This document shows, piece after piece, positions 32,300 to 34,446 of a stretch of 62,018 nucleotides of DNA. The stretch lies in NCBI GenBank assembly GCA_015490755.1, contig WFXF01000056.1, positions 1 through 62,018 of the forward strand, read 5' to 3'. This DNA comes from Gammaproteobacteria bacterium (lineage in GTDB: Bacteria > Pseudomonadota > Gammaproteobacteria > JAADGQ01). The translations under genes and the position numbers were made by a program. The notes beneath the pieces are model-generated. The model was given only the letters and a program-made list of their open reading frames with translations. It searched no databases and was not told the DNA's origin. The stretch's first letter is position 1. Each line of letters starts with the position of its first letter.

Positions 32300-33265
32300 T
32301 TATCCTTCCAGTGCACCGCCACAGCTGCTTCCTTGACCCGCAGCACAACCATAACAATGCCCCTTAACAACAACAGCCTCTCCCTCAAGCATTCCCCCTG
32401 CCAGGTCAGACAGATGCCAGCGACTCTTTCCTTCCCGCTGTAAAGGCAGGTTGAGCATTTGATTAAAGTCACAATCATAAACAAAACCCTGCCAATCCAC
32501 GCTCAACTGATTGCGACACATTAAACTTTCCAGATTATCTGAACTATATGCATTATTTAACAGCTGCATATAGCCTTCAAACTCACCCTTCGAAACCAAC
32601 ATGCTACCAAAACGCTTAATCGGCATATTTGTTAATGTAAATAGTTGATTAAACTCTATGCCAAATTTCTCTGTTAAATGCCTTCTATAGTCAGACTCCA
32701 AGGCTGCTTGAGGGGGGGGTAAAGCAGGGCCTTGTGGATTATAGACAAGGTTTAACACTAAACCTGACATCGGCTTTCCATAACCTAGAGAGTTCAACCG
32801 CAAAAGCCCCTTGATACTCGCAGCAAAGGTACCTCGGCCTCGCTGCTTATCAACATTATCTTCAAGATAACATGGCAATGATGCAACCACCTCTACTTCA
32901 TTAAGTGCTAAAAAATTCGCCAACTCTTTATAGCCAGGCTCTTCAAAAATGGTTAAATTACACCGATCAATGACATGAACGCCTAACGCTTTCGCACTCT
33001 CAACCAGGTAACAAAAGTGTATATTCATTTCTGGTGCCCCCCCTGTCAGATCCAGCGTTTTGATATCGCCCTTTTCCAAAAACCTGACAATATCTTCAAT
33101 AACATTACGCTCCATCATTTCAGACCGCCCAGGACTTGCATCAACATGACAATGCAAACATTGCAAATTACAGCGATACCCCAAGTTAACTTGCAACACC
33201 TCCACCTGCCTTCTGGCTACTGACGGAAATTGCCACTCTTCCAGCAGTGATAATGTATCAAGCAT
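32300..33265 (-). CDS. arsS: ArsS-like radical SAM protein
   Basis: 321 residues. Radical SAM motif CNLQCLHC (C32, C36, C39) is followed by HVDASPGRSE, and DLTGGAPEMN replaces the usual GGEP. The C-terminal part ends with CYGCAAGQGSSCGG (C304, C307, C315), probably for an extra iron-sulfur cluster. This layout matches the family annotated as arsenosugar-synthesis radical SAM protein ArsS, some members of which are selenoproteins. No stop codon is read through here and the positions are cysteine. No arsM or other arsenic gene is nearby, so the substrate is uncertain. It is first in a run with dusB, fis and purH. Confidence 0.85.
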   Translation of the reverse strand: MLDTLSLLEEWQFPSVARRQVEVLQVNLGYRCNLQCLHCHVDASPGRSEMMERNVIEDIVRFLEKGDIKTLDLTGGAPEMNIHFCYLVESAKALGVHVIDRCNLTIFEEPGYKELANFLALNEVEVVASLPCYLEDNVDKQRGRGTFAASIKGLLRLNSLGYGKPMSGLVLNLVYNPQGPALPPPQAALESDYRRHLTEKFGIEFNQLFTLTNMPIKRFGSMLVSKGEFEGYMQLLNNAYSSDNLESLMCRNQLSVDWQGFVYDCDFNQMLNLPLQREGKSRWHLSDLAGGMLEGEAVVVKGHCYGCAAGQGSSCGGALEG

Positions 33266-33409
33266 CTAATCTCTTCCCCTCCCCATCATTTATTGTGCCG
33301 AAACTCTCTATCTGAATACATAAAATTAACCTTAACGAGCCGTGTAAAAATTTAAAATTTACAACTTATTTAAAAATATGTAAGAATACGTATGCGTTTA
33401 CTCAAGTTT

Positions 33410-33925
33410 ATCCAGCATACGCCGTTAACATGTTCGCAAGGACGTAGCTAAGCAGCAAGGAATAAGGAAAGCGCTGCAATAACAGGATGATGTAGCATGT
33501 TGTGTAGCTGTGCAAATCGTACCACATGGATCGGTACTGGCAAGATGCCATACGCAACGGACAAGGATTGAAATGCAATCGGTCAATGGAATTGATAATG
33601 GCAAGATGCCGTGCACAGATACAACTTTTTGGATTCATAGGAATGAAGCCAAAAAACGGAAGCAGTATGCAAGGAAAAGGGACTAAGCACGTATATTTGG
33701 AAGGCAAGATGCCACCATGTCACATGGAGTGACCGCATGGAAGCAACGATCACGAAGGATTAAGGATAGATGTGATTGATAAAAAGGGAGTAAAGGATTG
33801 TACGCGTACGCTCTACGCGTACCTTAGATCACGGGAAGTGATCATTACCTGGCCAAGGACGGCCTCACCAATTTCCCCACCAAACTTTTCAAACCCATAG
33901 GCAAACTGGAAATGCCTATACTCAG
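33410..33925 (+). ncRNA. Candidate large structured RNA, unknown class
   Basis: This is the core of a 683-base stretch with no credible gene (33266-33948). Many consecutive helices can be drawn. Perfect or near-perfect ones are GCAGC/GCTGC (33452/33473), GTACC/GGTAC (33519/33533), GATTG/CAATC (33566/33576), TTTTTGG/CCAAAAA with inner TTCAT/ATGAA (33626/33649), CCATG/CATGG (33715/33723), GATCAC/GTGATT (33748/33772), GTACGCGTA/TACGCGTAC (33800/33814), GATCAC/GTGATC (33827/33838), GGCC/GGCC (33851/33861) and ATAGGCA/TGCCTAT (33897/33913). Three copies of GGCAAGATGCC, each a tiny hairpin, lie at 33539, 33600 and 33703. Loops are purine-rich on the plus strand (GGGAA, AGGA, AAGGAC), which favours plus-strand transcription. 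No promoter or T-tract terminator was identified with confidence. It could be an RNA gene, a remnant of a mobile element with a structured RNA, or a leader of arsS on the other strand. Confidence 0.4.
33539..33713 (+). repeat. Three copies of GGCAAGATGCC
   Basis: Exact 11-base copies at 33539-33549, 33600-33610 and 33703-33713. Each can fold as GGCA, loop AGA, TGCC. Spacing is irregular (61 and 103 bases) and the reading frame differs between copies, so they are not a protein repeat. Confidence 0.9.
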
Positions 33926-33948
33926 CAACGTTGTAAGGAACAGAAGGT

Positions 33949-34446
33949 TCACAAAAGTATTAAACCTCCGATCTCTTCAAATAAACCTGAAAAATCAACC
34001 TCCACCCAACCACTACTGCCACCTATAATTAAGTGCCGCTCTAAAATATCCGGAATTTTCACCTGGCTTTCCCCGTCAGTTTTTTCAATATTTATTACTT
34101 GTGGCAAAGTATCAACCAAAATACCCACAGCACCATCACCTTTACCAACAACCAAAATATGAGATTGATTCTCTTGCTGCGTATAAGACACTTCATCAAA
34201 AAAGATATCTTTCAGATCAAAAACTGAAACAATATTCCCACGATGATTAATGACTCCTCTAAACCACCTCGGTGTATTAGGTACGGGGTAGATCTCTCCA
34301 TCATTAACAACTTCATTTAACGTCTGCGAGGGGAGAAACAAACGAAGCCCCCCTACAAGAACACCATAACGTACTGTTTTAGCATCAAATTGAAGGTCAA
34401 TTTCACTTGATGCTTTCGCACTCTCTATTTCTTCAGTATTCACCAT
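33949..34446 (-). CDS. CheW-like chemotaxis/signalling adaptor
   Basis: CheW-domain protein of 165 residues. It has a 25-residue polar N-terminal extension, then YGVLVGGLRLFLPSQTLNEVV, WFRGVINHRGNIVSVFDL (the CheW core) and GILVDTLPQVINIE. CheW proteins couple receptors to a CheA-type kinase. None of cheA, receptor or pil genes is nearby, so it is an orphan. It could belong to a chemotaxis or twitching (PilI-like) array encoded elsewhere. It is divergent from the hypothetical gene at 34529 by 82 bases. Confidence 0.88.
   Translation of the reverse strand: MVNTEEIESAKASSEIDLQFDAKTVRYGVLVGGLRLFLPSQTLNEVVNDGEIYPVPNTPRWFRGVINHRGNIVSVFDLKDIFFDEVSYTQQENQSHILVVGKGDGAVGILVDTLPQVINIEKTDGESQVKIPDILERHLIIGGSSGWVEVDFSGLFEEIGGLILL

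Follow-up and report, generated by a model that had tools for sequence, protein, structure and literature searches.

The plus strand of a non-coding gap between arsS and a CheW-like gene very probably carries the gene for a small RNA of CsrB/RsmZ type, about 480 nt long and predicted to act as a sponge that titrates CsrA. The gap lies in a stretch of gammaproteobacterial DNA of 62,018 nucleotides, hereafter called the window. CsrA is a master regulator of metabolism and lifestyle in bacteria, and its sponges adjust the balance between growth, motility, and a biofilm or storage lifestyle. The features that mark a Csr/Rsm sponge were found together here, namely an excess of GGA on one strand, a placement of GGA in loops and linkers, and a CsrA encoded in the genome. 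The class was assigned from the repetition of GGA, from where the motif lies relative to loops and how well it is conserved, and from a CsrA in the genome.

No Rfam family was matched by the region at gathering thresholds, which is consistent with an RNA outside the known Rfam families, and permissive thresholds brought up no significant family either. The CsrB model (RF00018) did not exceed its gathering threshold here, and in a control search it passed in one of 14 control genomes. The best sub-threshold match was to PrrB_RsmZ (RF00166), with 15.6 bits against a gathering score of 44, and nothing in the genome exceeded the cut-off of that model; weak matches to it elsewhere (L092-L095) lacked the GGA density and were set aside. 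Since the sequence, as far as it can tell, has the features of a sponge and the Rfam thresholds are missed, the predicted RNA is a new member, so far without annotation, of a functional class already known, outside CsrB and PrrB_RsmZ as these families are delimited by their thresholds.

The non-coding locus and its limits

The gap spans 683 bp (33266-33948). No credible open reading frame was found in it by an ORF check between the two flanking genes, and insertions and deletions relative to a homologue in the same-genus genome G001 (for example of 1, 15, 2, 4, and 6 nt) break any reading frame, which bears out the gene-free character given to the region in a preliminary description. That description had also named fold energy against shuffled sequence as a check on structure; the observed energy was better than all 100 dinucleotide shuffles on each strand, with a z-score of -2.6 on the plus strand and -3.5 on the minus strand. 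Additionally, a run of G at 32712-32719 within arsS is a possible slippage site.

A promoter-like site precedes the GGA-rich region (Table 1). It has the form TTTACA-N18-AAGAAT with an extended TG in the window and is kept as TTTACA-N18-AACAAT with TG in G001, although the number of such sites found by the consensus scan across the region is not above chance. Judging from this site, transcription would start near 33394. Conservation with G001 stops at about 33870, 3' of hairpin H11, and no intrinsic (Rho-independent) terminator was found for the RNA region. Such a 3' terminator is usual for CsrB and RsmZ, but is not essential to their function. The limits first proposed, 33410-33925, were therefore slightly off at both ends, as the likely start and the end of conservation lie at the positions above and conservation does not reach the last hairpin (33897-33919), which may lie outside the RNA.

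Table 1. Features of the locus and of the predicted RNA, with the corresponding forms in related genomes.
Feature	Position	Strand	Form in the window	Form in related genomes	Remarks
arsS	32300-33265	minus			NCBIfam TIGR04167
Promoter-like site	33358..33387	plus	-35 TTTACA, 18 nt, extended -10 TGTAAGAAT		Consensus scan
Predicted CsrB-type RNA	33394..33870	plus	~480 nt, 22 GGA		GGA statistics, homologue, GGA conservation, covariation; ends putative
H1	33452..33477	plus	GCAGC/GCTGC, two GGA in loop	G001 GCAAC/GTTGC	1 compensatory pair
P2, closing helix round multibranch domain	33508..33618	plus	CTGTGCA/TGCACAG	G001 CTGTGTA/TACACAG	1 compensatory pair
H2a	33519..33537	plus	GTACC(ACATGGATC)GGTAC	GGA loop same in G001	Two stem pairs broken in G001
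H2	33538..33550	plus	TGGC(AAGAT)GCCA	G001 TGAC(AGGAA)GTCG, loop GGA	1 compensatory, 1 G-U change
H3	33583..33595	plus	TCAA(TGGAA)TTGA	G001 TCA(TGGAA)TGA	
H4	33600..33610	plus	GGC(AAGAT)GCC	G001 GGC(AGGAT)GCC	
H5	33626..33655	plus	TTTTTGG...TTCAT(AGGA)ATGAA...CCAAAAA		2 compensatory, 1 G-U change over inner and outer stems
H6	33703..33713	plus	GGC(AAGAT)GCC, loop without GGA	Identical in G001	
H7	33719..33733	plus	GTCAC(ATGGA)GTGAC	Identical in G001	
H8	33749..33776	plus	ATCAC...GTGAT, two GGA in loop	G001 GTCGC/GCGAT	1 compensatory, 1 G-U change
H9	33800..33822	plus	GTACGCGTA/TACGCGTAC, without GGA	Shorter in G001	
H10	33827..33843	plus	GATCAC(GGGAA)GTGATC	G001 GATTAC(GGGAT)GTAATC	1 compensatory pair
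H11	33851..33864	plus	GGCC(AAGGAC)GGCC	G001 GGCC(AAGGAT)GGCC; G002 GGCC(ACGGAC)GGCC	
Possible extra hairpin	33897..33919	plus	ATAGGCA(AACTGGAAA)TGCCTAT, GGA loop	Not conserved in G001	
CheW-domain (CheW-like) gene	33949-34446	minus			

Density and placement of GGA motifs

CsrA/RsmA binds at sites with GGA at their center, preferably in a hairpin loop (PMC7652899; PMC3856055). Single-stranded GGA in short hairpins is preferred, with an optimal distance between sites of about 18 (PMC3856055), and E. coli CsrB, whose partner CsrA favors GGA in hairpin loops, carries 22 GGA (PMC7652899). The same count was obtained for E. coli csrB as a control, in 369 nt.

The plus strand between 33388 and 33875 (488 nt) contains 22 GGA, 11 AGGA, and 17 ANGGA motifs against one TCC, with a median GGA spacing of 19 nt. 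Over 33410-33860, dinucleotide shuffles gave means of about 10 GGA, 3 AGGA, and 3 ANGGA, and none of 2,000 shuffles reached the observed values. No other part of the window comes close to this density on either strand, with 22 GGA against at most 12 elsewhere and 17 ANGGA against at most eight per 450 nt; the purine-rich loops of the preliminary description correspond to this density.

The mean unpaired probability at GGA was 0.73 in the window and 0.63 in G001, compared to 0.49 and 0.47 overall, although the values for other purine triplets were similar to those for GGA. Perfect hairpin loops with a stem of at least five pairs contained GGA more commonly than in GGA-preserving shuffles, an enrichment that is weak in G001 once wobble pairs are allowed.

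Conservation and covariation in a same-genus genome

G001 holds a syntenic homologue between arsS and the cheW-like gene, with 78% identity. In a MAFFT alignment that was corrected by hand locally at two places before GGA motifs and pairs were counted, 19 of the 22 GGA were kept in register, a retention above that of triplets in general (53%) and of the other purine triplets (57%).

The helices named in the preliminary description (GTACGCGTA/TACGCGTAC, TTTTTGG/CCAAAAA with inner TTCAT/ATGAA, GATCAC/GTGATC, and ATAGGCA/TGCCTAT) were all present, and a homologue with compensating base changes, by which the candidate RNA was to be judged, was found in G001. Across 14 helices, 52 pairs were unchanged, three changed on one side, seven changed on both sides, and two were broken. 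When the partner columns were shifted by one to three positions, at most one double change was seen and 39 to 51 pairs were broken. These counts come from two sequences, and as some of the helices were picked by eye from the window sequence, the number of retained pairs leans towards structure, while the double changes are unaffected. H2a is the weakest among the proposed helices.

The element GGCAAGATGCC occurs three times, in hairpins H2, H4, and H6, whose loops lack GGA. Two of the G001 counterparts of these GGC(AAGAU)GCC hairpins carry GGA, as GAC(AGGAA)GUC and GGC(AGGAU)GCC, and the third is identical in both genomes. Because two counterparts carry the motif, at least some of the three look like putative CsrA sites from which GGA was lost here, or at which it was gained in G001.

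Beyond G001, a DNA search of 274 class-level genomes returned a single match of 39 bases, in the genome G056, which lies near what reads as transposase-like sequence and was attributed to chance. No match was found among the GTDB contigs searched with the CheW alignment, or among viral contigs. A 17-base motif from the 5' part occurred in 13 stretches of unrelated taxa, which is not above chance expectation.

A putative GGA-rich RNA in another genus of the family

In the genome G002, from a different genus of this family, no similar sequence was found by DNA search. A search for clustered ANGGA patterns identified a non-coding stretch with 20 GGA (L064) between a response-regulator gene and recQ. 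Its hairpins include GTTTCA(TGGAG)TGAAAC, AAATGC(TGGAA)GCATTT, AGCC(AGGAT)GGCT, and CTGAA(AGGA)TTCAG, and the last one, GGCC(ACGGAC)GGCC, resembles H11 of the window, GGCC(AAGGAC)GGCC; the two RNAs have little other sequence in common. The G002 RNA would be either a relocated true orthologue or a Csr RNA independent of that in the window. Further GGA clusters returned by the pattern search (L060, L061, L065) overlap long open reading frames and were classed as coding, as was, by reading, a weak match of the G002 RNA in the window's genome (L087).

By reading of the surrounding stretch (L071, G002:C155:2000-9500), the neighbors of the GGA-rich RNA of G002 are a response regulator, a histidine kinase, and a CheC-like protein. 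With a CheC-like neighbor there and a CheW-like neighbor in the window, a link to chemotaxis-type signaling is possible.

The window RNA and its G002 counterpart were both missed by Rfam, so annotation would make the family's Csr circuit seem incomplete. A covariance model for the family could be started from these loci.

CsrA, its regulators, and a proposed mechanism

A canonical csrA lies close to lysC in the window's genome and scores higher than the NCBIfam equivalog cut-off, and the protein has L4 and R44, which have been named as RNA-contacting residues of CsrA (PMC7652899). Neither csrA nor lysC was found in the assemblies of G001 and G002 (completeness 97% and 91%, respectively). Because the neighboring lysC is absent as well, the missing csrA probably reflects a gap at this locus in both assemblies and not a loss.

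A UvrY/GacA protein above the NCBIfam equivalog cut-off was found in G002, and none was found in the incomplete assemblies of the window's genome and G001, where the best candidates reached about half the cut-off and a far lower score, respectively. None of the three RNAs had a convincing GacA box in its upstream sequence, the best match having four mismatches in 12 positions. Given the sub-cut-off scores in both genomes and the lack of a convincing box, the usual activator may be absent from this genus or have given way to another, or may fall in assembly gaps. A bolder extension, that the genus has a Csr sponge without UvrY/GacA, driven by another regulator, and that the GGA-less GGC(AAGAU)GCC hairpins bind a second factor and are not decayed CsrA sites, appears doubtful. 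With UvrY apparently lacking from one genus, the idea of another input to the Csr system becomes testable.

A dispersed repeat around AGGAGGCTGTCCGAGAATGGAAGTCGTAGCGAGGGA was also observed in more than 20 copies in the window's genome (contigs C2, C13, C28, C34, C36, C40, C50, C58, C61, C87, and others). Several copies stand about 112 bases from the end of a contig, a position that points to a mobile element interrupting the assembly.

In the proposed mechanism, the RNA would have its own promoter near 33358-33387, with transcription divergent to that of arsS and heading for the CheW-like gene from its 3' side. The RNA would display its approximately 22 GGA sites at intervals of about 19 nt, many of them in the loops of hairpins or in linkers that are single-stranded. 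Many CsrA dimers could be bound in this way, drawing CsrA off its mRNA targets, and the mRNAs repressed by CsrA would be released. Transcription, CsrA binding, and titration are predictions read from the sequence.

Alternative readings

The size and strong structure of the region, its lack of an Rfam match at gathering thresholds, and the presence of helices without GGA, such as H6 and H9, would also suit another large ornate RNA in which GGA is incidental, for example a HEARO or OMEGA RNA, a giant riboswitch, or a new ribozyme. This is very unlikely, as short hairpins repeat where a complex conserved core would be expected, the conservation of GGA exceeds that of the rest of the sequence, and the related genus has a GGA-hairpin RNA that otherwise shares little sequence. 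No nuclease or transposon gene adjoins the region, and the comparison to HEARO offered in the preliminary description found no support, with no HEARO match in Rfam even at E <= 5. What had been called an unknown structured RNA is indeed structured and non-coding, with covariation and no Rfam gathering match, but it is not unknown in kind, as the Csr/Rsm class, which that description did not consider, fits.

The strand and the function of the region were weighed likewise. Both flanking genes lie on the minus strand, and the fold is slightly better against shuffles on that strand (z of -3.5 versus -2.6), as might be seen if the RNA acted from the minus strand or was a 3' UTR or antisense part of the cheW-like transcript. 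However, GGA is concentrated on the plus strand (22 versus one TCC), where the promoter-like site is kept in G001, and all three one-sided stem changes produce G-U pairs on the plus strand and A-C mismatches on the minus strand. The plus strand was assigned because the one-sided changes fit it alone and because of the GGA bias; the minus-strand, 3' UTR, or antisense reading is further opposed by the related G002 RNA at another locus and has an extremely small probability. A few repeats (GGCAAGATGCC, three times) and the lack of an open reading frame could also point to a region without function, whether made of degenerate repeats, a dead element, or the remains of a gene, but this is barely credible: synteny and 78% identity are maintained in another species, GGA is preferentially retained, and the covariation contradicts decay. 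The CsrA-titrating sponge on the plus strand remains the preferred reading.

Comparison with known systems

HEARO and OMEGA RNAs resemble the window RNA as large structured non-coding RNAs, but differ in having a complex core instead of repeated GGA hairpins, and the window RNA has neither a match to their models nor a nuclease gene. The RsmZ/PrrB, RsmY, and RsmX RNAs of pseudomonads share the ANGGA hairpin loops and linkers, and the weak sub-threshold model match was to this group. In contrast, these RNAs are about 100 to 150 nt long (the RF00166 model has 133 positions), while the window RNA is several-fold longer with far more sites, and a GacA box was not found for it.

E. coli CsrB (RF00018) is alike in its 22 GGA, many of them in small hairpin loops, in its lack of an open reading frame, in its one-stranded motif bias, and in the presence of CsrA in the genome. 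It is shorter (369 nt versus about 480) and differs in motif composition, with seven ANGGA against 17 in the window RNA and 14 AGGA against 11. The window RNA also differs from it in lacking a U-run terminator, an Rfam match, and a clear UvrY in the genome, and in its neighboring genes. RsmB of Pectobacterium and Erwinia, a long CsrA/RsmA sponge of about 480 nt, is similar to the window RNA in length and in the sponge function predicted for the latter, but is under the control of GacA.
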